In this document: positions 18,878 through 37,132 of the stretch, piece after piece
How the letters are laid out: the number at the start of each line of letters is the position of its first letter
Numbering within the stretch: the first letter of the stretch is position 1
Notes under the pieces: generated by a model
What the model was told of the DNA's origin: nothing
What the model saw: only the letters and a program-made list of their open reading frames with translations
Databases searched by the model: none
Position numbers and translations under genes: made by a program
NCBI GenBank assembly: GCA_040757335.1
Contig: JBFLXB010000018.1
Location: forward strand, 1 to 64,000
Direction of reading: 5' to 3'
Source of the DNA: Nitrospirota bacterium
GTDB lineage: Bacteria; Nitrospirota; Nitrospiria; 2-01-FULL-66-17
DNA: 64,000 nucleotides

Positions 18878-21800
18878 TCATGGTGTCCGATTGATACCCA
18901 GCTTCTTCATTCTGGATAAGAGCGTTGTACGATTGATTCCCAGTAAGAGCGCAGCACCTTGAGGGCCGCCGATCATCCAGCGCGTCTTCTCCAGAGCCTT
19001 GAGGATATGCATCCGCTCCGCCTCATCGAGGGGTAGGACCTCCTCTTTTTTCTCCTGGACGACCGCCGCTACGTGAAGCTGATCGGTTTGGATAACTGGA
19101 CCATCGCAGAGAATGACCGCCCGTTCTATGACATTAGCTAACTCCCGCACATTTCCCGGCCAGTGATAGCTGGTCAGGAGGCCCATCGCCTCTGCGCCGA
19201 CACCGTCGATCCTCTTACCCATCCGCTGGGAAAACCGCCGCACGAACAACTCGATCAAGAGTGGTATGTCTTCGGCTCGCTCCCGGAGCGCCGGCAGATG
19301 GATGGGGAAAATATTGAGCCGATATAACAGGTCGGCGCGGAACGCTCCGTGCCGAACCTCTTGCTCCAGATCGCGATTGGTCGCCGCGATCACACGGACA
19401 TCCGTGCGCAACGTCTGGGTCCCGCCTACGCGCTCAAACTCGTGTTCCTGTAAGACGCGGAGCAGCTTGGTCTGCATGTCGAGCGGCAACTCGCCGATTT
19501 CATCGAGGAAGATCGTCCCGCCGTCGGCCAGCTCGAATCGCCCCTTCCTTCTCGCCGTCGCGCCGGTAAACGCGCCTTTCTCGTGACCGAACAATTCGCT
19601 TTCGACGAGTCCTGCTGGGATTGTGCCGCAGTTCACCGTGACCAAAACGTGTTGTTTCCGCGCGCTCAGATTGTGAATCGCCCTCGCGATCAATTCTTTG
19701 CCGGTGCCGGTCTCGCCCGAGACCAGGACCGTGGTCTCGGTGTGCGCGACCCTCTCGACCCGCTGAAAAACTTCCTTCATCGCGAGGGACGCACCGACGA
19801 TCTCCCCAAAATTGTGCTGGGTTCGGATCTCCTCCTGGAGGTACACCTTTTCGGCCTGAAGGCGATTCTTCAATTGCTCCACTTCCACGAGGGCGGCTCG
19901 GAGCCCTTCCTCGGCCCGCTTCCGCTCCGCGATCTCCGCTTTCATCCCGTCGTACAGTCGGGCATTCTCAAGGGAGACCGCGGCCTGGGATGAGAGCATC
20001 TGCATCACCCCGACGCGATCGGGCGTAAACGCATCGGCGGTCAGGTTGTTCTCGAGGTAGAGGATGCCGACCAGTCGGCCCTGGTTGATCACCGGCGTGC
20101 ACAGGATCGAACGCGGTTTTCGCTCCGTGATGTACGGATCACCGGCATACCGCTGGTCGCTCACCGCATCGGCGAGCACGACGCTCTGCGAGGTCCTCTT
20201 CACGTAATTGACGACGCTTTTCGGAAGACTCTTCGCTGCACTCAAGGGGATGGCTTCATGCACCGTCATCTCGGGGGCATCGACCGCTCCCTCGGCGCGC
20301 ACGAACAATTCGCCGTCGGACTCCACCATCAGACTGCCTCGCTCAGCCCCAGCATTCTCAATCGCGATGCGCATCAACTTCGCCAGCAGCTCCTCCAATT
20401 CGATCTCGCTGGACATGACCTGCGCAGCCTTCATCACACTGAAGAGGTCGAACGCACCGGCTTTGGTCTGGTCCATGGCCGGAACTCCGCCAACCGCTAA
20501 TGGGCGGCTATTCGCCTCTCGGCCCAGCAAGTCAGGATACTTGTGCTCCAGTTCGGCGACCTTGGCAGCCGCGCCCCACTGCGCATAACAGGTTCGAGCG
20601 TCGTCCATGAACACGGCGGCGATCTTTCCCTGTCCGCGTCCCAGCCAGAACTTGGCGCAAAGTTCGCTCGCCAGCGCTCGATGCTGGAGCATGTTGGTCT
20701 CGCCGGCGTAACGAATGGCGTGCTCGTACCGGTCCAGCGCCGCAAGGTGCCGGCCGGCAATGCGCTCGATCTCCGCCGACAGCAACAGTGCCTGACAGAG
20801 AAAGTTCTCGGGACAGTTCTGCGCCAGGACCGCAAACGATGTCTGCGCCTTTTCCATCTCCTCGAAATAGGCCCTTCGCTCATCCTCTGTGGCATCAGCA
20901 TAATTTGCGGCCAGGGTGAGACCAGTCCAGAAATCGAACATCACGGGCCAGATCGTTCCTGAAAGCCGATACACAATCCCGCGCGCGGTGCGGGCGGTTT
21001 CCAATGCCTTTCCATACTCCCCAAAGACATAAAAGAGATGTAGCTTGGCTACAGCATAAAACGTCGTAAAGAACGGATTGCCGCGGTAGGTCTCCGCGTA
21101 TTCGTTCTCGTCAAATGCTTCGTGGGAAAGCGACAGCGGTGCCCTGGTCTCTCCCTGCAACGCCCGGACCCAACTCAGCATGAGCATCAGGGCATCGCCG
21201 AAGCTCACAATCTTCAACTTCTTGATCAGCGCCAGATTAGGCGTGTAATCGCGGACGAATTGCGCGAGGTCCTGGGTTGAAACGATCGCCGACCAGGTTT
21301 CCGTACTGGCGCCGTAGGCTGCATACAGGAAATCACCGCTCTCAAGCCCGCTCCGGCATGCCTCGCGCGCGTGGGGAATGCAGGTTTGGATCGGCTGCCG
21401 CCAGAGATTCACGTGCGCATGGAACTGCTGATGAATCTTTGCCCGCCGCCGGGAGTCGTTAAAGCGCTCATTCACGCGCAGGGCCAACCTGCCGAATTCG
21501 TAGGCGGATTCGTAGTCTCCACACACCGGCCCTACCGTAATGGCGTGCGTGACATAGCCGTATGCCGACTCTTCCAGGTTGCCGTGGAGCAACGACAGGC
21601 GCACCATCGTGGCGGAGATCAGACGGGCGAGGACTTCTTCTCCAATGATGTAAGCCGAGGACCACATGTCGGTGAGAATAGTCATCACCATCCGCGTCTC
21701 GGGATGGATCATGACCGGCAGGTCGATGAGCGATTCAATGCGGCGCTGGCCCAATAGCGACCGAATGGATTCGATCTCGCTTTCCAGCGCGGCTTGCTTG

Positions 21801-24379
21801 CCCTCCACAGAATCGGGAAAGGACACGCCAAAGAGGGCGAGGCTTTCGCAGGCGACGGCGAGAGCATCCGCATAGCGCGACATGTTTTCATACTGGACGC
21901 TGCGCAAGTTGTAGACCCTGGCCTTATCCAGACTGCTCCGCGCGCGCTGCAGAAGCGACTCGAACTGCTGCTCCACCTCGTCGAAATGGCCGCACAGATA
22001 CAGGCATGCGGCGGCCTCGAGATGCAGAGCGAAGGCGAGATCGTAGCGGGACTCCCACTGCTCTGCACCGAGTAGGCTCAATCCCGCCTTGAGGTAATCC
22101 CGCGCCGCGACATAGGCGGTCGAGGATTTGGCCTTCCGTCCAGCGCTCAGATTGAGCCGGGCGAGCGCTACACGCTCCGTCTCTTCCGTGATCAAGCTTC
22201 TGCCGAGGTTCAAGTGGTGGACGACATCAAAGACCGTCTCATCGGTGTGTTCCGGATCAACGCGTTGCAACAGCAAGCGGCCCACCGTCAGATGAACGAT
22301 CTGTTGCCGTTCCGCCGGGATCAGCGCATAGGCGGCTTGCTGCACGCGGTCGTGCAGGAAGGCGTAGGACCGCGGATCGTTATCGGTCTTCGATCCGCGG
22401 TCTGCTGTGGTCGAAAGGATCAGCCCTTGGTTGATCGCCTCTTTGAGATCATCAGCCACCGCTTCCTGCGATTGCTCGCTAACAATCGCGAGAGTGTCCT
22501 GGTCAAACTGATTCCCGATGCAGGCGGCGAGCGTCAACGCGCGTTGAGTCTTGTTGGAGAGCCGCTGAATTTTTCGCGTCATCAGATCAATAACGTTGTC
22601 CGTCATCGTCGCGCCGGCTATGTCGTCGATGCGATACGCCCAGCGGCCCTGCGCGTAATCGAATTCCAGGAATCCCTCCTGCTTGAGCGTCTTTAAAAAC
22701 TGGATCACAAAAAACGGATTTCCGTCGGTCTTCTCAAAGACCAGAGCGGCGAGCGGCGCGGCCTCTGCAAGCTCGCCGTGCAGTGTGTCGCGGATGAAGA
22801 GCGTCAGGTCCGGGAGTTGTAGTGGCTCTAAAGTGACGCGGTGCAGTTCGACCCCCGCCGATTTGAGCGAGCTTAAGGTCCGCATCAGCGGATGGGCCGA
22901 ATCCACCTCGTTGTCGCGGTAAGCGCCAATCAGGAACAGGTGTCGAACGTTCGGACTCGTGAGTAACAGCTGGAGCAGATTCAAGGTTGCCGGGTCCGCC
23001 CATTGTAAATCATCGAGAAAGACGACCAGAGGATGATCGTGTTGCGTGAACACCTGAAGAAAGCGCTGAAAGACGAGGTTAAAGCGGTTTTGCGATTCCA
23101 CCGGCGGCAACTCCGCGACCGCAGGTTGCGGGCCGATCACCAACTCCACTTCGGGAATCACCGCAATGATGACCTGCCCGTTGGGGCCTAGGGCATGGAT
23201 CAGCTTCTCCTTCCACCCCTGGATCTGCTCCTCGCTCTCGGTCAAGAGCTGCCGAACCAATTCCTGAAAGGCTTGAATGATGGCGCTGTAGGGAGTACTG
23301 CGTTTGAATTGGTCGAACTTGCCTGAGATGAAATACCCCCTCCGTTCCACGATAGGCTTATGCACTTCGTTGACGAGGGTCGACTTGCCGATACCCGAAT
23401 ACCCCGAAACCAACATCACCTGGGTTGTTCCTTGAGCGACTTGCTCGAACGCCGCCAGTAGGGTTTCTAACTCCCGTTCACGCCCGTAGAGCCTTTGAGG
23501 AATCAGAAATTGATCAGAGAAATCATACCGACCGGGCGTGAACCCGCCGATCGTCCCGGAGGCCTGCCACTGTGCCAAGCACGCTTCCAGATCAGCCTTG
23601 AGACCATAGGCGCTTTGGTATCTCTCCTCAGCAGTCTTTGCAAGCAGTTTCACCACGATACTCGAGACCGCTTGGGGCACATCGGGATTTAGCTCACAAG
23701 GCGGTGCCGGAATTTTGGCGATATGAAAATGAACCAATTCCAAAGGGTCCATCGAATCGAAGGGCAGTCTTCCGGTGAGCATTTCAAAAAAGGTGACGCC
23801 GAGGGAGTAAAAATCCGTACGGTAATCCACCGCCCGATTCATCCGGCCGGTCTGTTCCGGAGACAGATAGGCTAAGGTCCCTTCAAGTAGACTGGGATGG
23901 CTAATTTTGGGGGTCTCATGGAGAAGGAACGAGGAAATAGTAAAATCGACGAGTCTGACTTTATTGGTTTTAAGGTCAACGACGATATTGTTCGGATTAA
24001 TATCATTATGAATAAAATTATTCTGATGAACTTCTGCTAAGGTCCCTGAAAGCTCAATGGCTATTTTTAGAAAGGAGACGAGGTCGATCCGTTGAGAGTC
24101 GATAAGGATCCGGAGGGGTTCGCCACCGATATCTTCGAGGATTAAAGCCAGTCGATTATGTTGTCTTTCAAGCCCATAGGCTTTAGGGATCCCATCGATC
24201 CGAAGATTCTGAAGTATTTCATACTCGCGCTTGAGAGCCGCAATATCCTTTTCAGCAGGCAAATCGGCTATCAGGGTTTTGATGAGAACCGTCGCTCGAT
24301 CCCGATCCCGTTGCCCGCGAAATACCACCCACTTCCTACTCCTATGAATTTCTTCCAGGACTTTGTAGCCGGAAATCAT
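18878..24379 (-). CDS. Ser/Thr kinase-AAA ATPase-GAF-sigma54 activator fusion regulator
   Basis: This is a 1833-residue multidomain signalling protein. Residues 1-275 are a protein-kinase domain whose catalytic loop is HNDINPNN (124-131) and whose metal motif is DFT (145-147), as is usual in this trifunctional family. A STAND-type ATPase follows, with Walker A GYSGIGKS (326-333) and [11 protein letters not shown], then about 700 helical TPR-like residues. A GAF domain lies near 1320-1480, followed by a short coiled coil. The sigma54 AAA+ domain has GETGTGKE (1555-1562) and GAFTGA (1602-1607), so contact with sigma54 is expected. The end carries a Fis-type HTH ([20 protein letters not shown]). 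The 5' ~500 bases are AT-richer than the rest. The regulon is unknown. Confidence 0.93.
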
Positions 24380-25184: not shown

Positions 25185-27446
25185 CTACGGGTTGCCTTGT
25201 CCCGAAAGGAGTTTGAGGCTGTAACTCACCGGCGGCGCGTGGCCGTGCCGCTTGAAACGCAGCGTTTCGACGATGCTCTGGCCGGGGAGCAGGACGCCAT
25301 CGGGCAGGAACACGCGGAGATATGGATCGCCGGCGCTCGTGGTGCCGCTGACGTTCACCATGCGAATCTGGTCGGAAAGACCCTGGACCACGATGAGGAG
25401 GTGGGTATCGACGATCGACGTGCTGTTGTTGGTGATCTCATACCGGTCTCTCTGCCGCCGCTTACCTTTGCGGTCGGAGTCAATCAACTTCGCGTCCACC
25501 TGCGCGGTCACGTCCAGGAACTCGAGCCCCATGTCACGCCGCGACAGGGCATCGTCGTTGTCCGGCGGCCGGCCGCTGCCCGGCCGTCCGTCGACGGCGC
25601 CGAGCGCAGCGAGGTCGGGACGGTACACCGAGTAGGTCACGTCGCGCTCGTTCAACTTGATCGTGTCTGTCGTGGAGTTCGGATCGAAGTGCACGAACGC
25701 GGGATCGTAGAGGGCGTTCTCGATGAAGTTGGTGAGATCGTTCACTTGATCGTCGCTCAGGCCCAGGCCGCGCGGCGAGCCAGGTCCACGGGGGTGAGTG
25801 AACCGGTCCGTCAGCGTGTTCGCCGCGGCGGCCTGCGCGTTCTGCGGCATACCGGCGTTGAAGTACCGCACCACGTCCTTGACGCTCGTGAACGAGCCAT
25901 TATGGAAAAAGAATTTGGCGTCCCTGAGTTGCCGTAGCGTCAGCGTGCGGAACTTGAAGGCGTCGCTGTCGCGGAACGTGATTTCGCGCCTGCCCTCATC
26001 GAGGTGGTTGGGATCATTCCTCGCCGCGCGATTTAGGGCCTGGAGCGGGTGGTCGTCGAGTCCGAGGTTGTAGAAGTTCTCCTCCACGAACTCACCGACG
26101 CCAGCCACGTCGGGGTCGTTCACCTGCTTGTTCAGCATGGGGCCGCTGTGGCAGGTGTAGCACCCGGCCCCACCCGCTTCCGCTTCCGTGAAGAAGAGTC
26201 TGGCGCCGCGCCGCTGCGCAGGCGTCAGCGCGCCGTTCTCTCCGGCCAGGAACCGATCCCAGGGCGTGTTTCGTGTGACGACCGTGCGCATGAAGGTGGC
26301 CGTCGCCCGGAAGATGGTGACGTTGTTGATGAGATTGTCACACGCGCCAGCAACAGGAGCAGATTCTGGAACGCACCCTGGCGCCATGGCGGCCTCCGCG
26401 GGAAACGCGTCGCGGAAGAGCTTCCGATACACGGGGATTTGCTCCAGCACGGCCGACTGGAAGCGCACCGGGCCGCGCAGAGGATCATTGTCCAGGAGCC
26501 GGTGAGCGTCGAGTAGCAGGAGAGCCACGTTCTCTTGCGCCGGATGCTGGAACGGATTGAGGCCACCGTGCGTCTGATCGGGCTCGCCTGCCAACCCCCC
26601 GAACAAGAGGCGGTTGTTGAAGGCGGCTCCGATGATGCTCAGCGGATTTCGCGCCACGCTGTCCAGGGCATCAAGTCGACCGGTAGCCAGCAGCTGAACC
26701 GCGGCTGGTCGGGTATCTGTCGTATCATCCGGATACGTATCTTCCGGCAGAGGGCGGCGACCCCGGGCTGGTGTGTTCACTTCGATCGTGCCGTCCGCGA
26801 GCGAGTAGATGTCTGTCAGCGTGGGCAGCGCGTCCACCAGCGCGTCTCCCGGGAAGAGCGGGGTCTGCCGCAAGATCGGCAGGTCCGCAAGCGGCCGCCG
26901 ACGCGCAATGAAGTTCCCGTCCACATCCGTGTAGCCTCGCCCTTCCCCGCCCGAGGCGAAGTTGAGGCGCGTGCCGGACTTCGATGCCGCCTCACCGAGA
27001 TGACAGGTTCCGCAGGACGTGGTTCCGCGGTGTTCGAGTATGCCACCGAATTCCGGGATAATCCTGGTCGCTCGTGCCGGCTCGTGGAATAGCAGTTTCC
27101 CGAGGTAGCGCTTGGCCTCGGTGGTCTGGAAGACCGGGTCGGGGCTTCCATCGGAAAGTCGTGGCTGCGGAAGATCGGAATCGTTCGCTGGAACCATCAA
27201 CTTCTCAATCCCGCCCACCTGCTGGTCAATGAACTGGCGCAATTGGGTGGGGCTGTGGGTCGGGCTGTTTTCCTCAGCCGCGGCGACTCCGCCGGAAAGC
27301 ACGCCCACGGCCAGAGCCGCGGATACCGCCATCGCCGCGCGGAAGGGCCCGCCGCGAGGCGCAGGCGGGTGTTGCATGGTTCGGCGGACCGGGGCGCCAT
27401 GCGGCGTGCCTGGCTCCACAACCTGAGTGTTCGCTTCATTCTTCAT
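25185..27446 (-). CDS. Di-heme cytochrome c peroxidase / MauG-family protein
   Basis: The protein has 753 residues from the ATG at 27446 with GGAGG upstream. A signal peptide-like segment ends near AVGVLSGGVAAAEE. Two heme c sites are visible, CGTCH (N-terminal third) and CYTCH (middle), with FFTEAEAGGAGC and later NLGLDDHPLQALNRA as in CcpA/MauG proteins. About 150 C-terminal residues, rich in beta strands (ITNNSTSIVDTHLLIVVQGL), are an extension not typical of the 330-350-residue peroxidases. Periplasmic peroxide removal or a specific oxidation are both possible. Confidence 0.88.
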   Translation of the reverse strand: MKNEANTQVVEPGTPHGAPVRRTMQHPPAPRGGPFRAAMAVSAALAVGVLSGGVAAAEENSPTHSPTQLRQFIDQQVGGIEKLMVPANDSDLPQPRLSDGSPDPVFQTTEAKRYLGKLLFHEPARATRIIPEFGGILEHRGTTSCGTCHLGEAASKSGTRLNFASGGEGRGYTDVDGNFIARRRPLADLPILRQTPLFPGDALVDALPTLTDIYSLADGTIEVNTPARGRRPLPEDTYPDDTTDTRPAAVQLLATGRLDALDSVARNPLSIIGAAFNNRLLFGGLAGEPDQTHGGLNPFQHPAQENVALLLLDAHRLLDNDPLRGPVRFQSAVLEQIPVYRKLFRDAFPAEAAMAPGCVPESAPVAGACDNLINNVTIFRATATFMRTVVTRNTPWDRFLAGENGALTPAQRRGARLFFTEAEAGGAGCYTCHSGPMLNKQVNDPDVAGVGEFVEENFYNLGLDDHPLQALNRAARNDPNHLDEGRREITFRDSDAFKFRTLTLRQLRDAKFFFHNGSFTSVKDVVRYFNAGMPQNAQAAAANTLTDRFTHPRGPGSPRGLGLSDDQVNDLTNFIENALYDPAFVHFDPNSTTDTIKLNERDVTYSVYRPDLAALGAVDGRPGSGRPPDNDDALSRRDMGLEFLDVTAQVDAKLIDSDRKGKRRQRDRYEITNNSTSIVDTHLLIVVQGLSDQIRMVNVSGTTSAGDPYLRVFLPDGVLLPGQSIVETLRFKRHGHAPPVSYSLKLLSGQGNP

Positions 27447-27566
27447 GTTCGTATGCCTCCGCTGGTCCAAGTGGATGCGCGGCCACCCGGAGGGACGCGC
27501 CAGAGGTCCGGGAACAGTCCCCTCTGCCTGTTTCGGCGACCATGAACGAAACAAGATACCGAGTTG

Positions 27567-27716: not shown

Positions 27717-28834
27717 CTGAGCACGGTAAAGGCCGTCCAGGCCAGCGCCGCCGCGACCGGCAGCGTGGTGACCCACGCCAAGGCGATCGAGCCGATGGCC
27801 TTCCAACGAGCCTGCCCTGTGACTGCGCCGATCCCGAACAAGGCGCCGCACGAGACGTGCGTGGTTGAGACCGGCAGTCCCCACCGCGAGGCCCAGATCA
27901 CTAGAAAGGCCGTGGCCAGGTTGGCCGTGAACCCCTGGCCGTGGTTCATCGCGGTGATCTTGTGGCTCATGGTCTCCGCGACCCGCCGGGCGCTGATGAG
28001 GCCGCCCACGGCCATCGCGACCGTCACGAGCGACGCCGCGAGCGGCACGTGCAGCGCCTGCGCCGTGACCAGGAGCGCCACGACCTTGGGTGTGTCGTTC
28101 AAGCCCCGCGCAAAGCACACCGCCCCCGCGCTCAGGTAGTGCAGCCGATCCAGGATGGTCTGGAGGCTCACCCCCGCCATGTGGCCGGCATACCGCTGAA
28201 AGCACTCTTGGGGATTGGCCATGGTGACCGAGGGCAGGGTGCCAGCGACCGACGCGGCGAGGGATCCCCCACGCGGCTCAACGGCCACCACGTGGACCTC
28301 TTCCCCCACGCACACGCAGGTCTCGCGTGCAAAGCCCAGGGCCTTCCGGGACGCGTGAAGGAGCGGATAGGCGAGGGCGGTGAGCGCGATCGCGGCGAGC
28401 GGGGCCATCACCAACGGCGCCACGAAGGCGGTGCCCAGCGACCCCACGTTCACGCCTCCGAGGCCGCGCGCGGCGAGCCCCGCGCCGACCAACCCGCCGA
28501 CGAGCGCGTGGGTAGTGGAGATCGGAAAGCCCAAGCGCGTGGCCAGAAACACCGTGGTGGCGGCGGCCAACGCGACCGCGGACGCGAAGCCCGAATCGGC
28601 AAGCACCGCGTCGGGCACCAGCCCTTTGCCCGAGAACTTGGCGACCAACCCCGCCCCGACCACGATCGACGCCAGCGAGCCGGCAAACGTCGTCGCGGTC
28701 GCCCACCGCAGCGCGCCCGTGTACTCGCTCGCGCCCGAGCCGAACAGCGTGGCCACGCCCTTGAAGTTGTCGTTGGCCCCGTTGGCATAGGCCAGCCAGA
28801 GCACGATCGTGCCGATCAAGAGGACAGTCGTCAT
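27713..28834 (-). CDS. PiT-family inorganic phosphate transporter
   Basis: The permease has 373 residues. The ATG at 28834 shares its A with the TGA of the radical SAM gene (TGATG), so the two are coupled. It has about ten hydrophobic helices and the two inverted PiT signatures, NGANDNFKGVATLFGSG near the N-terminus and ARGLNDTPKVVALLV in the second half, plus GFPISTTHALVGGLVGAG and GLPVSTTHVSCGALFGIG. PiT carriers move metal-phosphate and can take arsenate. Coupling to an ArsM-like fusion points to arsenic as well as phosphate. Confidence 0.92.
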   Translation of the reverse strand: MTTVLLIGTIVLWLAYANGANDNFKGVATLFGSGASEYTGALRWATATTFAGSLASIVVGAGLVAKFSGKGLVPDAVLADSGFASAVALAAATTVFLATRLGFPISTTHALVGGLVGAGLAARGLGGVNVGSLGTAFVAPLVMAPLAAIALTALAYPLLHASRKALGFARETCVCVGEEVHVVAVEPRGGSLAASVAGTLPSVTMANPQECFQRYAGHMAGVSLQTILDRLHYLSAGAVCFARGLNDTPKVVALLVTAQALHVPLAASLVTVAMAVGGLISARRVAETMSHKITAMNHGQGFTANLATAFLVIWASRWGLPVSTTHVSCGALFGIGAVTGQARWKAIGSIALAWVTTLPVAAALAWTAFTVLR

Positions 28835-31296
28835 CAGCAGCACCCCAAGTTGGGATCGCAGCCGCCGGCAGCAGGGTCGATCTCTCCTGTCACGCCCGTC
28901 ACCGTGAACAGTCCGGCGTACGGCAGGTGGGAGAGCTTCGCAGCCGTGTCGGTGCACACCTCGATGGCCACGTTGCGCGGGAACCAGTGTCCCTCTTCGT
29001 CGCTGATGCCTTTGAACGGCCCCAGGTAGGTGGCGGTCTGGCCGACGTAGAGGCAGCCCGCGGTCTTCTCGAACTTGTAGCCCCGCACGGTCACCGACGA
29101 GAAGCGGTAGCCCTCCACCTCTTTCCAAAACGTCTTCTTCAAAACCTGCAGGCCGTAAAACCCTGCCCGTTCCAGGTACGCGAGGAACTCCTCTTCGGTC
29201 AGCGCGCCGCTGATGCACTCGCCCCAGAGGCGCGGGTCCTTGCGCTGGTGCGGCGGGATTTCCTGATCCGCCACGATGTCGGCGATGACGATGCGGCCGT
29301 GGTCCTTCAGCACCCGCCACATTTCCGCGAACACGCGCGGTTTGTCGGGCGAGAGGTTGATCACGCAGTTGGACGTGACCAGGTCAACGGACTGGGTCTC
29401 GGCCGGGATCTGTTCGAGAAATCCTTCGCGAAACGCGACCACATCGTAGCCCAGCGCGTCGGCGACCCGCGTCTGCGCGTCGCGCGCCACCGCGAGCATC
29501 TGTGGCGTCATGTCCACACCGATGGCTCGACCCGTGGGGCCGACCTTCTTGGCGGCGATGAACACGTCGATGCCCGCCCCGCTGCCCAGATCCAGCGTGG
29601 TCTCGCCTGGTTGGATCCCGGCCGTGCCTACGGGCGAGCCGCAGCCGTAGAAGCGCTCGACGACCTCCGTGGGGATGTGGGCGAGGTCGTCGGGGTTGGG
29701 TTGCACGGGGCAGCACAGTTCTTCCTGCGGCGTCTCGGCGGCGTTGCCGTAGAACGCGCGCACGACCTTGCGGGGGGCGTCCAGGTCGAACGTCAGCACG
29801 CACTCGGATCGGCTGGTCAGCACTTCGCCCGGCGTCTCGTCGGTCGCGCAGGTGACCGCGGCCTCGCCCATGCCGGTGTAGACGATGGGCGCGGAGAACC
29901 CCGACTTGCGGTTGGTCACGAGGGCCTTTCGTCCTTCGGTCAGATCCTGCAAGGCGTCGGCGATCATGGCCTGGTGCAACTCGCAGTAGGGGTCGTGCGC
30001 CGCGATCGAGCCGCCGTAGCAGTAGGCGTGTTCGATGTCGCCCCCGCCGCAGAGAAACTTGAGTGGACAGGTCTTGCAGATCGCCTTGTCCTCCACGGTC
30101 GCGGATGCGAATGCACGCGCCACGTCGCTCCCCATCCAGATGTCCTGCAGCGATCGCTCGAGGATCGACCCGCACGCCAGCTCCGGCACGTTGGCCAGGG
30201 CGGCCGAGGGATAGACCTGACCGTCCGCGTACACGCACAGGCTGGAGACCCCGGCGCTGGCCAGGTCGCGCTTGGTGCCCGCCGGATAGCGCAGTCGGGC
30301 CTTCACCGCCTCGTGGTTATCCACTACGACGCCGAGCGATCGCCCCACCTCGCGGCAGCGCCGCACCACCTCGATCACCCGGTCCACCGCGGGCGTGCGA
30401 TCCACGCCCTGCGCATCCGCACGCCCGCGCTTGTGCAGCCAGAGCAAGTGGTGCGTGGTCCCGCCCAGTCGGGAAACCAGGCGGGTGACCTCGGGAAGAT
30501 CGTCCGCATTGGCCTCGGTGATCACGGTGCTGACCGTGACCGAGAGCCCAGCGCCGAGTGCTGTTCGGATGCCGTCCACGATGCGATGGAAGCTGCCCTT
30601 GCCCCGGATGGGGTCGTTGGTCTCGGGCGTGGAGCCGTCCAGGCTGATCTGGATTTTGAGCCGTGCGGGATCGCGCTGGCGAAGCGCCTCGATCCGACTC
30701 GGGGTCAACAGGATGCCGTTCGTGAGGATGGCCAATTCGGCTTTCGGGTCCTCCAGCACGGCGTCGATCAGATCGAAGAGGTCTTTCCTCAGAAACGGCT
30801 CGCCTCCGGTGAAGAAGAAGCGGCGAACGCCGAGCGCCCGGGCGTCGGCGAGCGCGCGCAGGAGCACGTCGGTGGGCAGGCCCTTGTCCCCGTCCGGGCC
30901 GGACGACACGAGGCAGTGGCTGCACGCGAGGTTGCACGAGTTGTTGGTGTGCAGCCACAGTTCGCTCAGGTGGCGCGGTCCCAGGTGCGACGCGCGGCCG
31001 CGGTAGGGCGCTCGCACGATCGGCCGTTCGGCTAGCATCCCGCGTCGGATCGCGTCGCGCGCGAACGTGTCCACGTGCTGCCACGCCGCGATCAGGTCAT
31101 GCTTGTGTTCGGCGGCGTAGGCGCGGACCACCTGGCCGAACGTCCGTACGCCGTCGAAGAGCTCCAGAATCCGCCGGCCGCGCTCGTCGGTCCCGATCCA
31201 GTTCGGCCCCGCTGGGTCGAGCAGGACGGTCAGGTCGTCGAGCGTCAGCGTTTCCCTGGTCGGCGCGTGCAGCACCGTGTCGTGGATCACGATCAT
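28834..31296 (-). CDS. PqqD-radical SAM-SPASM-ArsM-like methyltransferase fusion
   Basis: This 820-residue protein has AAGGAG upstream of the ATG at 31296. Residues ~20-95 resemble PqqD (VLLDPAGPNWIGTDERGRRI). The radical SAM core has CNLACSHC (C121, C125, C128) and TGGEPFLR (163-170). A SPASM-type cysteine set follows (C354, C375, C407, C410, C416, C426, C438). Residues ~505-745 are a class I methyltransferase (LDLGSGAGIDVFIAAKKVG, 568-586) closest to arsenite methyltransferase: YGNAAETPQEELCC, RFYGCGSP, SNCVINLSPDKPRVFAE, GECISGAL. All four ArsM cysteine positions are filled (C528/529, C552, C644, C694). The tail ends GGCDPNLGCC. ArsM and radical SAM chemistry are both known in organoarsenical synthesis; this single-chain fusion is not one I recognise. 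The product is unknown. Confidence 0.88.
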   Translation of the reverse strand: MIVIHDTVLHAPTRETLTLDDLTVLLDPAGPNWIGTDERGRRILELFDGVRTFGQVVRAYAAEHKHDLIAAWQHVDTFARDAIRRGMLAERPIVRAPYRGRASHLGPRHLSELWLHTNNSCNLACSHCLVSSGPDGDKGLPTDVLLRALADARALGVRRFFFTGGEPFLRKDLFDLIDAVLEDPKAELAILTNGILLTPSRIEALRQRDPARLKIQISLDGSTPETNDPIRGKGSFHRIVDGIRTALGAGLSVTVSTVITEANADDLPEVTRLVSRLGGTTHHLLWLHKRGRADAQGVDRTPAVDRVIEVVRRCREVGRSLGVVVDNHEAVKARLRYPAGTKRDLASAGVSSLCVYADGQVYPSAALANVPELACGSILERSLQDIWMGSDVARAFASATVEDKAICKTCPLKFLCGGGDIEHAYCYGGSIAAHDPYCELHQAMIADALQDLTEGRKALVTNRKSGFSAPIVYTGMGEAAVTCATDETPGEVLTSRSECVLTFDLDAPRKVVRAFYGNAAETPQEELCCPVQPNPDDLAHIPTEVVERFYGCGSPVGTAGIQPGETTLDLGSGAGIDVFIAAKKVGPTGRAIGVDMTPQMLAVARDAQTRVADALGYDVVAFREGFLEQIPAETQSVDLVTSNCVINLSPDKPRVFAEMWRVLKDHGRIVIADIVADQEIPPHQRKDPRLWGECISGALTEEEFLAYLERAGFYGLQVLKKTFWKEVEGYRFSSVTVRGYKFEKTAGCLYVGQTATYLGPFKGISDEEGHWFPRNVAIEVCTDTAAKLSHLPYAGLFTVTGVTGEIDPAAGGCDPNLGCC

Positions 31297-31891: not shown

Positions 31892-32923
31892 CTACGGCTG
31901 GACGAGTACCACGGCGTGGCCGTCCGGATCCCGGACCAGCACCCCCTTGGAAAATCCCACCGCACCGTCCGATACCGTGACCACCCCCGGCGACACGAAC
32001 GCGGACTTCCCGCCGCGCAGACGGCCCGCAGCAGCATCCGCGTCTCGCGTCGCGATTTGTATCTGCCAGTGCGCGAGGTCATTTGCCCGGGCGTCCGCGG
32101 GTATCGGGCGCCCGTCCCGTGGGGCGAGGTACTCGAGAAACTCGATCCCCGGACCCGTGGCCGCCCGCAGCGCCGTGATCCGCAGCCTCGCGCCGAAGAC
32201 ATTGTTGAGGTGTTCTTGCTCGGTCCCGTAGTTCTCGCTCTCCCCGACCACCCGCATCCCCAAGGCGTCGCGATAGAACGCCAGACTGCGCTCGGTGTCG
32301 GCCACCACGATCGCGGTGTGGTCGATGCCGAGGAACAACTTCTCGCTGGGACGATGCCACTTCGGATCGCCTTTCCCCGCGGGGAAGTGGAGGATCTCCA
32401 GGTGGTGACCGTCGGGGTCCTTGAAATAAAAGGCCTGAATGCCACCCGCGTTCTTGTTCCAGTCCGGCAGCCGTTGCGGACCGGAGGAAGCGTGTTGGAT
32501 GCGGTGCTCGCGGAGTCGCCGATAGGCTCGATCCATATCGCTGACAATGATCGCGACGTGCTGGAACCAGCGGTCGTTGCTGCGGGAGTCCGCCGGAATC
32601 GGCCGGCCCTTGGGCGCGAGGTACTCGGTCAGCTCGATGGATTCGTCGCCCAGTTTCATGCGCACGACTCTCATGCGCAGCCCGAACACGCCCTGCAGGC
32701 GCTCGTACGCCTCGCCCGTGACCTCCACGTCCGAGATTTTCTCGAAGGACAGGACGTCGGAGTAGAACGCAATCGAGCGATCCATCTCCGCGACCGTCAT
32801 TCCAACGGCGGCCACGGATTCGACGATCCCCTCTCCGCGCGCCGCCATGCCGGGCGCGAGGATGAGGATCAACCAGAATGCGGCGACGAGCGTGATCCGC
32901 CTCACGAAGCCCTCGCGGTCCAT
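31892..32923 (-). CDS. Secreted protein with two VOC (glyoxalase-fold) domains
   Basis: The protein has 343 residues. Residues 1-30 are an export signal (ITLVAAFWLILILAPGMAARG). VOC domain 1 is at about 35-180 (VGMTVAEMDRSIAFYSDVL, HVAIIVSDMDRAYRRL, FKDPDGHHLEILHF) and domain 2 at about 195-342 (HTAIVVADTERSLAFYRDALG, VRDPDGHAVVLV). His and Glu residues at family metal positions suggest a dioxygenase, isomerase or lyase. No vicinal Cys as in ArsI is present. Its 5' end overlaps the GMC gene stop by 22 bases, so it follows the GMC genes in one transcript. Confidence 0.85.
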   Translation of the reverse strand: MDREGFVRRITLVAAFWLILILAPGMAARGEGIVESVAAVGMTVAEMDRSIAFYSDVLSFEKISDVEVTGEAYERLQGVFGLRMRVVRMKLGDESIELTEYLAPKGRPIPADSRSNDRWFQHVAIIVSDMDRAYRRLREHRIQHASSGPQRLPDWNKNAGGIQAFYFKDPDGHHLEILHFPAGKGDPKWHRPSEKLFLGIDHTAIVVADTERSLAFYRDALGMRVVGESENYGTEQEHLNNVFGARLRITALRAATGPGIEFLEYLAPRDGRPIPADARANDLAHWQIQIATRDADAAAGRLRGGKSAFVSPGVVTVSDGAVGFSKGVLVRDPDGHAVVLVQP

Positions 32924-34482
32924 GCCTCGACGCGCGCGCCCAGCCGTTCGAGGATGTGGTCTCCGACTCGCAACGCGTTCGCGATGATGGTTAACGACGG
33001 GTTCACCGCGGTACTGGATACGAAAAAGCTCGCGTCCACCACGTAGAGGTTGTCGAGATCATGCGTCTTGCAGTTCACGTCCAGCGCCGACGTCATGGGG
33101 TCGTGGCCGAAGCGGATGGTGCCGCACTGATGCGCGGTCCCGGCCAGCGGGATCTTTTTGCCCAGGTAGATATTCGACCCCAGCCGGCCACGTTTGCGGC
33201 CGATCGCGTCGAGCGCGCTCTTAAGCTTGGCGACGAGCCGCCGATGTCCCTCCAGGTTGTTTTGGGTGTAGTGGAGATGGATGTCACCGTTTGAGGCAAC
33301 GAGCACGCGATTGTCAGGGTCCGGCAAGTCCTCGGACGTGAGCCAGAAATCCAGCGAATGCGTGGCCATGCCGTCCAGGACCCAGCGCGGCGTCCACGTG
33401 GGCGCGTCGCCTTTGAGCATCTCGAGGTCGGTCTTCCCCAGCATCTGGATATGCCCCAAAGGAAAGTCCCAATCATCCGCGCTGAAGTAAAAGTCGTTGA
33501 GGGCGAGCGTCTTTTGGAAGGTCGTGGGATTGCGTCGCGTGGAGAGCGCCAAGAGCGCCGAGTTGTTGTGGCACATGTAGTGGCGTCCGACCACACCCGA
33601 CCGATTCGCCAGGCCGTTCGGGTGCTGGTCGTTCGCGGACTGGAGCAGCAGCGCGGCGGAGTTGACGGCCCCGCACGACACCACAACCAGATCAGCGGAG
33701 TAGGTCTCGGGCATCCCTCCCCGTCTGACGTGGACCGCGGTGATTTCGCGTCCCGAATAACTGGTCGCGAGACGCGACACGTACGCGTCGGTCAGCAGGG
33801 TGACGTTGGGATACGCGAGCGCCGGCTGCACGCACGTGGTATGGGCATCGGCCTTGGCCTCGACGAGGCACGGGAAGCCGTCGCAGGTGGCGCAGCGGAT
33901 GCACGGGCTGTGGTGCCGCTGGGCCTCATTGAGCCGGATGCCGAGCGGTAGCGGAAACGGAGTGTGCCCGATCCCACGCAGGTCGTCGCACAGCTCTTGA
34001 ATGCGAGGCTCGTGGCTGACCGGCGGGTGGCGGTAGGGCGCGCTGGCCGGACCCTCGGTGGGGTCGATCCCGCGTTGCCCGTGCACGTGGTAGAGATATT
34101 CCGCCTGGGTGTAATAGGGCTCCAGGTCTTGGTATCGAATCGGCCACGCCGGAGAGATCCCGCCGTGGTGTTTGACCTCTTCGAAATCTTCGCGGCGAAA
34201 TCGCAGCAGCGCCGCGCCGTACACCTTCGTGTTCCCGCCCACGTAATAGTGAATGCCGGGGTGGAAGCTTTTCCCCTGCTTGTCGTACCACGTTGTCTTC
34301 GCTCGGTACTTCGAGTCGGCGAAGACGGCGCGCGAATCCCAATTGGCTGTCTCCCGCGGGAGATAGCTCCCTCGCTCCAGCACCAAGATCCGCTTGCCGG
34401 ACGGCGCCAGGTGAAAGGCCAGCGTCCCGCCCCCGGCTCCGGTGCCGATGATGATGACGTCAAAATGTGTGTCGTTGGCCAC
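32902..34482 (-). CDS. GMC-family FAD oxidoreductase A
   Basis: The protein has 526 residues from a GTG at 34482 with GAGGGA upstream. It has an FAD Rossmann motif (VIIIGTGAGGGTLAFHLAPSG), ATG-rich GMC body landmarks (HYYVGGNTKVYGAALLRFR) and a C-terminal GMC_oxred_C block with HQCGTIRFGHDP and LYVVDASFFVSSTAVNPSLT. A cysteine cluster CIRCATCDGFPC (C-x2-C-x2-C-x4-C) lies near residues 192-203. Sugar and gluconate dehydrogenases of this clan carry cysteine clusters near this place. No signal peptide is seen. It is a tandem paralogue of the next gene. Confidence 0.9.
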   Translation of the reverse strand: MANDTHFDVIIIGTGAGGGTLAFHLAPSGKRILVLERGSYLPRETANWDSRAVFADSKYRAKTTWYDKQGKSFHPGIHYYVGGNTKVYGAALLRFRREDFEEVKHHGGISPAWPIRYQDLEPYYTQAEYLYHVHGQRGIDPTEGPASAPYRHPPVSHEPRIQELCDDLRGIGHTPFPLPLGIRLNEAQRHHSPCIRCATCDGFPCLVEAKADAHTTCVQPALAYPNVTLLTDAYVSRLATSYSGREITAVHVRRGGMPETYSADLVVVSCGAVNSAALLLQSANDQHPNGLANRSGVVGRHYMCHNNSALLALSTRRNPTTFQKTLALNDFYFSADDWDFPLGHIQMLGKTDLEMLKGDAPTWTPRWVLDGMATHSLDFWLTSEDLPDPDNRVLVASNGDIHLHYTQNNLEGHRRLVAKLKSALDAIGRKRGRLGSNIYLGKKIPLAGTAHQCGTIRFGHDPMTSALDVNCKTHDLDNLYVVDASFFVSSTAVNPSLTIIANALRVGDHILERLGARVEAWTARAS

Positions 34483-34500
34483 GAGTCCCTCGCAACGGCG

Positions 34501-36045
34501 TTACTTCATCCGCTCCACCAGATGGTCGCCCACCCTCAGCGCGTTGGCCAACAAGGTATGCGTCGGGTTCAGCGCGGCGCTGGAGGGGTAGAAACTCGAA
34601 TCCACGACGTAGAGGTTGTCCACGTCGTGGGCGCGGCAGTTGATATCCAACACCGAGGTGGCCGGGTCGGTGCCGAAGCGGACCGTCCCGCACTGGTGGG
34701 CCACGCCCTGGATACCGACCTTCACGCTCCGATAGAGGTTGCTCCGCAGAATGTGATCGCACATCTCCAGGCTCCGGAGAACTTCGATCCACCGCATCTG
34801 CAGCCGGTCGAATGACGCGCGGTTGTTCTCGGTGTAGCTGATCTTGACAGTGTTCCGCTCCCACGTGACCCGGTTATTGGGGTCGGGCACATCTTCAGTC
34901 ATGAACCACCAATCGGTGGAGTTGGCGGCCATTTCATCGAAGGTCATGCCCGGCAGCGGCTCCTTGAACATATCCGCGAGCATCTCCGGCAGGATCTGCC
35001 CGGTGCTCTGGATATTGCCCATCGGGTAGCGGTAGCCCTTCTCGCCCCAGTAGAAATCGTTCAAACCCACGGTCTTCTCGAACACCGTGGGATTGCCTTT
35101 GCTGGAGACGACGACCATGGCGCCGAGCAGGTGATACATGTAGTTCCGTCCGACTTGATCGGAGCGATTCGCCAAGCCGCGCGGATGTTTCTCGTTCGCG
35201 CTCCGCAAGAGCAGCGCCGCGGAGTTGATCGCCCCGCACGAGACGACCACGAGATCCCCTTTGAAGATCGTGGTCGCGCCGTTGATCTCGGTCTCGACCC
35301 CCGTGACCTCTCGCCCGGAGGAACTGGTGAGCAGCCGCTGGACCCTGGCTTCGGTGAGCAACGTCACGTTCCGGTGTGCAATGGCCGGGCGCGCGCCGTT
35401 CGACTCCGCGTCGGCCTTCGCTCCCAGGAGACACGGGAACCCGTCGCAGGTCTCGCAGCGGATGCACTCGCTCAGAAACCGTCGATCCTCGTTCATCCGA
35501 ATGGCGGTGGGCAGGTGAAACGGATGAAGCCCCCTGGCCTTGAGGCCGTCGACCAACGCCTGCATCGGCGGCTCGTGGCTGATGGGCGGATAGGGGTACT
35601 CCCGGCTCATCGGCGGCGCGGTGTGATCCTCTCCGCGCAGACCGTGGCAGTCGTACATCTGCTCGATCTTGGTGTAGTACGGTTCGAAATCTCGGTACTT
35701 GAGCGGCCATTCCGGGGAGATCCCGTCCGGGTGTTCGACCCGTTCGAAATCGCGTTCGCGGAAACGAAACAGCGCCGCGCCCCAGAACTTGGTGTTCCCG
35801 CCCACGTTGTAGTGCGCATTGGAGCGGACCGGTTTGTCGTCCTTGTCCAACCAGACCTCATTGGTTTGGTAGCAGCCCTTCACCGCGACCTCGTTGACGT
35901 CCCAATTGCGCTTTTCACGCGGAAGCCAGGGTCCGCGTTCCAGGATGAGGATCTTTTTCCCGCTGGGCGCCAGGTACCTCGCCAGCGTAGCGCCCCCCGC
36001 GCCGGCGCCGATGATGATGAGATCGAACCGGTTCTCAGATATCAT
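34501..36045 (-). CDS. GMC-family FAD oxidoreductase B
   Basis: The protein has 514 residues from the ATG at 36045, which has GGGAGG upstream; a frame extension of 12 codons lacks one. It shares with its neighbour the FAD motif (LIIIGAGAGGATLARYLAPSG), HYNVGGNTKFWGAALFRFR, the cysteine cluster CIRCETCDGFPC and the C-terminal HQCGTVRFGTDP and LYVVDSSFYPSSAALNPTHT. The catalytic His/Asn pair of GMC enzymes is in the last block. It lies 18 bases from the first paralogue. Likely substrates are sugars or alcohols; an SMP-30 lactonase gene directly upstream favours an aldose. Confidence 0.9.
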   Translation of the reverse strand: MISENRFDLIIIGAGAGGATLARYLAPSGKKILILERGPWLPREKRNWDVNEVAVKGCYQTNEVWLDKDDKPVRSNAHYNVGGNTKFWGAALFRFRERDFERVEHPDGISPEWPLKYRDFEPYYTKIEQMYDCHGLRGEDHTAPPMSREYPYPPISHEPPMQALVDGLKARGLHPFHLPTAIRMNEDRRFLSECIRCETCDGFPCLLGAKADAESNGARPAIAHRNVTLLTEARVQRLLTSSSGREVTGVETEINGATTIFKGDLVVVSCGAINSAALLLRSANEKHPRGLANRSDQVGRNYMYHLLGAMVVVSSKGNPTVFEKTVGLNDFYWGEKGYRYPMGNIQSTGQILPEMLADMFKEPLPGMTFDEMAANSTDWWFMTEDVPDPNNRVTWERNTVKISYTENNRASFDRLQMRWIEVLRSLEMCDHILRSNLYRSVKVGIQGVAHQCGTVRFGTDPATSVLDINCRAHDVDNLYVVDSSFYPSSAALNPTHTLLANALRVGDHLVERMK

Positions 36046-36070
36046 GACGTCCTCCCACGACCACGCGCTG

Positions 36071-37132
36071 CTAGAATCCACTGCCAGTTGTGCTCAGCCG
36101 AATCCGGTAAATGGCCGAACCTCCCGTGACGTAGAGGACCGACCCGTCGTCGCCCCAGGTCAGGTTCGATGTGGCCAGCCCGGTTTCGATGCTGCCCAGG
36201 TGGGTGCCATCGGGCGCAAACACGCTGATGCCGCCGGGACGCGCGCCAAAGACGTGGCCGCTGCGGTCCACCTTCACGCCGTCGGGACCAAAAAACGGCG
36301 GTTTCTTCCACCGGGCGGCGTCGAAGAACACGCGCCCGTTCTCCACGGTGCCATCGGCCCGAAGGTCATACGCTCGCCACGCCGCGCGATCCGGATCAAC
36401 GTCCGTGACGTAGAGCGTGCGTTCGTCCGGCGAGAGCGCGATGCCGTTGGGCGCCTTGAGGTCTTTGATCAGCAGGGCGAGGGTCCCATTGCGGGATAAC
36501 CGGTACACACCCTGGAACGGGAGCTCTTTCCCCGGATCGTCGAAGGCCTTGGGCAACCCAAAGGGGGGATCGGTGAAGTAGAGATCTCCGTTCGACGCGA
36601 ACACCAGGTCGTTGGGACTATTGAGTCGCCTGCCCTCGAAGCGATCGACGAGGACCGTGCGGCGACCGTCCGGTTCAAGCCGCGCGATGCGTCGGTCGCC
36701 GTGCTCGCAGAGCACCAACCGCCCCTGGGAATCCAGCGTGAGGCCGTTGGAACCGGGTTCCTTGCCCCGGAATGGTCGGGGACCCGCGTAGCCGCTGGGC
36801 GTCAGAAATACACTGATCCCATCCCCTTCCTTCCATTTGAGGACGGCGTTCGCGGGAATATCCGAGAACAACAGATACCGCCCGCTCCGCTGCCAGATCG
36901 GTCCCTCGACCCAGGTGAATCCGTCGGCCAGCTTTTCCAATGTCGCGCCGGGTGGCACGAGCTGGTCGAACCGCGGATCAAGCCGCACGAGTTTCGCGAG
37001 ACCGGACGGCGCGCTCGGGGCTTCGATCGCCCACCCCACACTGAGGGAAAGAGCCGCCGCCAGACCCACTGCCCCCTGTATCAGAAAGGCCCATCGCCGC
37101 TGCATCGCTGGCCCGCCTCGCCGAATCATCAT
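36071..37132 (-). CDS. SMP-30/gluconolactonase-family protein, secreted
   Basis: The protein has 353 residues. The ATG at 37132 overlaps the stop of the preceding lactonase-like gene (ATGATGA), so translation is coupled. A signal peptide is present (WAFLIQGAVGLAAALSLSVGWA). The beta-propeller has the family metal ligands in GFTWVEGPIW (Glu), LNSPNDLVF (Asn) and ALSPDERTLYVTD (Asp). The family hydrolyses sugar lactones. It precedes the two GMC genes and follows its paralogue, suggesting lactone hydrolysis after sugar oxidation. Confidence 0.88.
   Translation of the reverse strand: MMIRRGGPAMQRRWAFLIQGAVGLAAALSLSVGWAIEAPSAPSGLAKLVRLDPRFDQLVPPGATLEKLADGFTWVEGPIWQRSGRYLLFSDIPANAVLKWKEGDGISVFLTPSGYAGPRPFRGKEPGSNGLTLDSQGRLVLCEHGDRRIARLEPDGRRTVLVDRFEGRRLNSPNDLVFASNGDLYFTDPPFGLPKAFDDPGKELPFQGVYRLSRNGTLALLIKDLKAPNGIALSPDERTLYVTDVDPDRAAWRAYDLRADGTVENGRVFFDAARWKKPPFFGPDGVKVDRSGHVFGARPGGISVFAPDGTHLGSIETGLATSNLTWGDDGSVLYVTGGSAIYRIRLSTTGSGF

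Follow-up and report, generated by a model that had tools for sequence, protein, structure and literature searches.

A fused PqqD-like, radical SAM, degenerate SPASM and ArsM protein in Nitrospirota: a candidate one-chain counterpart of ArsM and ArsS

The protein in this report is encoded in a 64,000-nucleotide stretch of the genome of a Nitrospirota bacterium (assembly GCA_040757335.1, contig JBFLXB010000018.1, positions 1 to 64,000; here called the window). In a chain of 820 residues it joins a PqqD-like region, a radical S-adenosylmethionine (SAM) core, a degenerate SPASM domain and an ArsM part, and this is a real, conserved enzyme architecture, apparently one that has not been described. 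From the sequences of the protein, its relatives, and their genomes, we favor with modest confidence the reading that the fusion replaces, in one chain, the two enzymes ArsM and ArsS at the entry to arsenosugar synthesis, and that its radical SAM half is not itself an ArsS.

The original prediction had placed here a single frame with a CNLACSHC motif, and that open reading frame (ORF) is present on the minus strand, with the motif cysteines at C121, C125, and C128. A phmmer comparison with the Protein Data Bank (PDB) matched residues 495 to 801 to ArsM structures and residues from about 88 to 442 to SPASM radical SAM enzymes. Foldseek, run with an AlphaFold2 model of the fusion, agreed, returning ArsM together with SkfB, CteB, and anSME; the model is mediocre (pLDDT 68, pTM 0.50), with low confidence at the linker (residues 474 to 512) and in the C-terminal tail. 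Within the ArsM part, a class I methyltransferase carrying C529, C552, C644, and C694, cysteines placed by alignment with the solved ArsM structures 5evj, 4kw7, and 4fr0, is followed by a C-terminal domain with C748, C781, and a terminal CC. The proposed PqqD domain is matched as well, at a score just short of the Pfam cut-off (Table 1).

The fused frame is not an assembly artifact, since two further full-length copies occur in the source genome (88 and 86% identical to the window protein) and others are found in independent metagenome-assembled genomes (MAGs). About 40 full-length relatives are spread over Nitrospirota, Elusimicrobiota, and one Planctomycetota MAG; copies in other MAGs are at 89, 71, and 45 to 52% identity, and distant fusions in families f34 and f41 are at 37 to 42%. 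At 12 loci from other MAGs the match extends over the full length of the protein. One of the 12 (L011, 8001-10409, the Planctomycetota MAG, 66%), with a PiT gene downstream, is interrupted by one in-frame stop close to residue 220, due to either sequencing error or decay.

The earlier remark that no described enzyme with this order of domains was recognized is in agreement with our search of open-access papers, which found none, the subscription literature lying largely outside it. The families that score best with the radical SAM half, Rv1681/MoeX, NirJ2, AhbD, MftC, and TIGR04053, do not carry an ArsM domain. The ArsM/AhpD and ArsM/DUF2284 selenoprotein fusions (NF041537 and NF041536) also join ArsM to another domain, but the partner is a different one and is placed after ArsM, and the window protein falls far below their cut-offs. 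In arsinothricin synthesis, as described in PMC8552651, the radical SAM enzyme ArsL moves a 3-amino-3-carboxypropyl group to arsenic and likewise works with ArsM toward a natural product with a C-As bond; there, however, the genes are separate and accompanied by an ArsQ permease, the radical SAM family is another one, and the neighbors differ.

Occurrence of the fusion relative to ArsS

ArsS adenosylates arsenic in the synthesis of oxo-arsenosugars (PMC12159101). Among 58 relatives from the class of the source genome, the fusion and ArsS are nearly exclusive of each other: 20 genomes have the fusion only, 33 have ArsS only, 2 have both, and 3 have neither (Fisher P = 1.9e-10). The fusion is thereby counted in 22 of the 58, some copies being broken by contig ends, and ArsS in 35 (33 over the cut-off and 2 fragmentary); most of the genomes without ArsS carry the fusion. 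Counted per genus, the figures are 14, 8, 1, and 1 in the same order (P = 1e-4). The pattern does not reduce to one split of the tree, because families f5 and f6 each contain both states. ArsS over the cut-off is also absent from all 12 genomes of the fusion-bearing MAG loci, and 22 ArsS genomes have a standalone ArsM homolog 391 to 839 bp away from ArsS.

Family f15 (G071, G080, and G088), which has no fusion and encodes its two halves as separate genes, gives strong evidence from context for both halves acting in one pathway. Next after the ArsM half (about 320 residues, 51 to 54% identity) come a TVP38 protein and then a TIGR04283 glycosyltransferase. The radical SAM half (about 481 residues, 34 to 35%) ends just past the Cys499 motif and lies on a separate contig, with TIGR04282 as the next gene in two of the three genomes. 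TIGR04282 and TIGR04283 both have the NCBI family name "arsenosugar biosynthesis glycosyltransferase"; the near-exclusive distribution and the split halves beside these two families are what a replacement of ArsS beside ArsM in arsenosugar-type genomes would look like.

The same families recur near the fusion. Among same-strand genes up to 8 kb away, TIGR04283 is found at five loci, compared to 0.17 expected (P = 1e-6), and TIGR04282 at three, compared to 0.13 expected (P = 3e-4). Across the class, TIGR04283 is present in 57 of 58 genomes and TIGR04282 in 52, and the three genomes that lack both ArsS and the fusion all belong to the six in which TIGR04282 is missing (P = 6e-4; one of them is just 65% complete). 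The source genome has the pair, over cut-off, at C4:88955-89512 and C4:89559-90215.

The ArsM half points in the same direction. Its alignment with the standalone ArsM found next to ArsS in Nitrospira-like genomes, the main family with ArsS, shows a shared C-terminal domain, C748, C781, and CC tail, features missing from the two other ArsM-like proteins of the source genome. In a maximum-likelihood tree all fusions form one clade (94/98) inside a larger one (99/90) with the ArsS-linked, split, and distant-fusion ArsM proteins; the C16 protein of the source genome and L148, both on long branches with uncertain placement, also fall in the larger clade. The window protein misses the curated ArsM cut-offs (NF008823, 230 versus 263 bits; AsSugarArsM, 152 versus 400; methyl_ArsM, 197 versus 500), as is expected because the fusion subfamily has no model of its own. 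The likeness to ArsM plus ArsS thus consists of a common ArsM subclade and of a genomic setting in which 55 of the 58 class genomes have either the fusion or ArsS, both kinds having TIGR04283 and nearly all of them TIGR04282. The difference is that the fusion is one polypeptide with its radical SAM part first, and that this part is of the PqqD-like/SPASM type without DUF3641.

Conserved cysteines and the radical SAM half

Columns were examined in an alignment of 26 full-length fusions, to which the distant fusions of f34 and f41 and the split genes of f15 were added afterwards. C121/C125/C128, C499, C528, C529, C552, C644, C694, and C748 are present in all 26, as is an intact CxxxCxxC motif with its radical SAM core, and C781 and the terminal CC are present in 25. 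The homologs are therefore not plain SPASM maturases lacking the ArsM cysteines, and the ArsM-like positions named in the original prediction (C528/C529, C552, C644, and C694) are invariant. On their class I SAM methyltransferase fold, C529, C552, C644, and C694 are kept in the distant fusions also; of the pair C528/C529, these keep only C529.

The claim of a full SPASM cysteine set did not survive this comparison. Two ligand positions of auxiliary cluster I that are Cys in distant relatives are Ser/Thr364 (S364 in the window protein) and Asp420 in all 26 fusions. Of cluster II, the full set C407/C410/C416/C438 is kept by only the five nearest to the window protein, the others having lost part or all of it. 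From the conserved and lost columns it follows that constraint acts on the radical SAM cluster and the arsenic-binding cysteines but not on the auxiliary clusters.

The window protein matches the ArsS model TIGR04167 with 47.7 bits over model positions 5 to 143 only, about half of the model, against a curated cut-off of 300, and so is not a member of that family; DUF3641, seen in a Nitrospira-like ArsS, is missing from it. The five best-scoring families named above reach 117 to 136 bits, with cut-offs of 265 to 500 bits. Because these scores are all far below the cut-offs, we regard the radical SAM half as an analogous, not homologous, replacement of ArsS. Descent from ArsS was considered and is unsupported: the ArsS branch of a small tree is very long and its position uncertain.

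The TIGR04167 family, which includes selenoproteins (PMC13188914), has variants of its own. In G116, G106, G185, G105, and others its radical SAM domain lies inside frames of 660 to 720 residues, a further kind of fusion in the ArsS family. TIGR04167 frames with an in-frame TGA of the selenocysteine type occur in several more genomes.

Proposed pathway and alternative readings

If the fusion does replace ArsM and ArsS, its invariant residues and fold suggest that the ArsM half would carry out SAM-dependent methylation of arsenite bound to thiols, by way of the cysteines typical of ArsM. The radical SAM half, to judge from genome context, would split a second SAM at its one universally conserved [4Fe-4S] cluster and move the 5'-deoxyadenosyl group onto the methylated As(III), giving a dimethylarsinoyl-nucleoside precursor that the TIGR04282 and TIGR04283 glycosyltransferases, in the same genome and in some relatives beside the fusion, could finish as an arsenosugar. 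More speculatively, Cys499 at the end of the radical SAM half and the C-terminal CC tail might hand As(III) over between the sites. The PiT carrier would probably import arsenate or phosphate. As a history for this enzyme we propose, tentatively and with somewhat less confidence, that a non-ArsS radical SAM lineage from full-SPASM ancestors independently acquired arsenic adenosyltransferase activity, shed its auxiliary clusters, and was joined to ArsM, with one polypeptide then making both kinds of C-As bond and passing arsenic along by conserved cysteines.

Several observations weigh against the replacement of ArsM plus ArsS. In Elusimicrobia, the fusion (17 of 147 genomes) and ArsS (8 genomes) do not overlap, a result that is not significant (P = 0.36), and two of the 58 class relatives have both. 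Five of the nine f34/f41 genomes, all five of them from f34, have the distant fusion together with a TIGR04167 protein, TIGR04167 being a broad family. The arsenosugar labels of the glycosyltransferases are names, not tests, and the window copy has no glycosyltransferase adjacent to it, PiT and DUF417 being the only genes close by. Finally, the radical SAM reaction, proposed here from context, could differ from that of ArsS, because the core is unlike that of ArsS and DUF3641 is missing.

This last point leads to the strongest alternative, in which the fusion makes an organoarsenical but its radical SAM half joins carbon to arsenic in another way, such as by an ArsL-like 3-amino-3-carboxypropyl transfer or with some other group. 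Such a reaction would agree with a half that shares only its core with ArsS and with the ability of radical SAM enzymes to transfer other SAM fragments to arsenic, as described for ArsL in PMC8552651, and a B12-binding radical SAM protein adjoining the distant fusion in f34/f41 hints at another product there. We nonetheless consider it unlikely: the neighbors and split-gene partners are arsenosugar-annotated glycosyltransferases, the fusion takes the place of ArsS phylogenetically, and no ArsL model is among the best 25 NCBIfam matches of the window protein.

That the protein serves detoxification as an ArsM, with an accessory or redox role for its radical SAM half and no second C-As bond made, is distinctly improbable. 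Decay of the SPASM clusters would suit such a role, as would PiT, DUF417, and MerA-like neighbors, which fit metal or redox stress, but the radical SAM motif and core are intact in every aligned fusion, two other ArsM-like proteins are already encoded in the genome, and the ArsM half belongs to the ArsS-linked subclade.

The original prediction had offered a novel organoarsenical or the modification of a peptide. The organoarsenical part is borne out by the exclusivity with ArsS, the split genes, the arsenosugar-annotated glycosyltransferases, and PiT, although the product need not be novel, replacement of ArsM plus ArsS being the likeliest role. The peptide part is unsupported. A maturase of ribosomally synthesized and post-translationally modified peptides (RiPPs), with PqqD binding a leader, the radical SAM half modifying the peptide, and the ArsM-like half methylating or metallating it, would account for the PqqD/SPASM architecture and the Foldseek matches to the RiPP maturases SkfB and CteB, yet we regard it as very improbable. 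An all-against-all comparison of small ORFs from the 26 fusion loci gave no family in more than three loci and none recurring beside the fusion, and the 49-residue peptide of the original prediction is absent as an ATG-started 49-codon ORF at 24 to 36 kb of the window. Furthermore, the PqqD-like region scores under its cut-off and is shortened in the f15 split genes, and auxiliary cluster ligands are lost while all ArsM cysteines are retained.

ArsM-type enzymes may be promiscuous. The same chemistry on antimony, selenium, or tellurium could draw on this and on the selenoproteins of TIGR04167 (PMC13188914), but it is hardly to be expected with the full arsenic-binding cysteine set invariant and the partners arsenosugar-annotated.

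If the replacement of ArsM plus ArsS is correct, one more lineage of radical SAM enzymes came to form C-As bonds, and there is a metalloid pathway whose one-chain form lends itself to expression and assay as a single unit. Arsenosugar-type arsenic chemistry would then exist in uncultured groundwater Nitrospirota and Elusimicrobiota without ArsS, where surveys using ArsS as the marker would miss it. Members of the family also range from full SPASM through one cluster to none, a natural series in which to study the role of auxiliary clusters.

Gene neighborhood and other features

The fusion and its adjacent genes are listed in Table 1. As originally claimed, the stop codon of the fusion and the ATG of the PiT gene share one base, TGCTGCTGATGACG (TGATG). 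Apart from the window, 13 loci have PiT adjoining the fusion, and the DUF417 gene of the window is probably in the same transcription unit. Other same-strand neighbors within 8 kb of the fusion are a MerA/Lpd-like FAD oxidoreductase (11 loci), TVP38 (9), DUF3047 (7), and DUF547 (4).

Table 1. The fusion gene, its domains, and adjacent genes in the window
Feature	Position	Strand	Basis and remarks
Fused PqqD-like/radical SAM/degenerate SPASM/ArsM protein	28834..31296	minus	820 aa, codons counted from ATG, read from 31296 to 28834; ORF translation, Pfam, NCBIfam, solved-structure matches
PqqD-like region, residues 23-88	31033..31230	minus	PF05402, 23.2 bits versus cut-off 23.4
Radical SAM core, residues 119-273	30478..30942	minus	PF04055, 93 bits; CNLACSHC (C121/C125/C128) at start
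SPASM domain, residues 351-411	30064..30246	minus	PF13186, 27 bits; D420 just past the matched stretch
ArsM part, about residues 503-820	28834..29790	minus	Methyltransf_31 (PF13847) at 562-712; PDB ArsM matched over 495-801
PiT-family (PHO4) transporter, 373 aa	27713..28834	minus	PF01384, 205 bits; ATG overlaps fusion stop by one base
DUF417/RclC-like membrane protein, 172 aa	31342..31860	minus	PF04224, 111 bits; ATG start; 45 bp upstream of fusion

At all six distant-fusion loci examined in f34/f41 (L177 to L182), the B12-binding radical SAM protein (493 to 494 residues) comes directly after the fusion and may add a cobalamin-dependent step to the product. A few genes downstream of fusion copy 2 in the source genome (C2; L089, 16622-18611) are an MNIO bufferin maturase (NF050167, over cut-off) and an HvfC-like partner, below cut-off.

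Just upstream of DUF417 in the window, the minus strand at 31892-32923 encodes a protein, predicted to be secreted, with a pair of VOC/glyoxalase domains; two GMC oxidoreductases (32902-36081) precede it. The C-As lyase ArsI has the VOC fold. Downstream of PiT, also on the minus strand, lies a MauG/di-heme cytochrome c peroxidase-like protein (25185-27554). Downstream of the operon, at 18878-24379 on the minus strand, is a protein of 1833 residues that combines serine/threonine kinase, AAA_16, GAF, sigma54-activator, and Fis parts in an unusual one-chain regulator.

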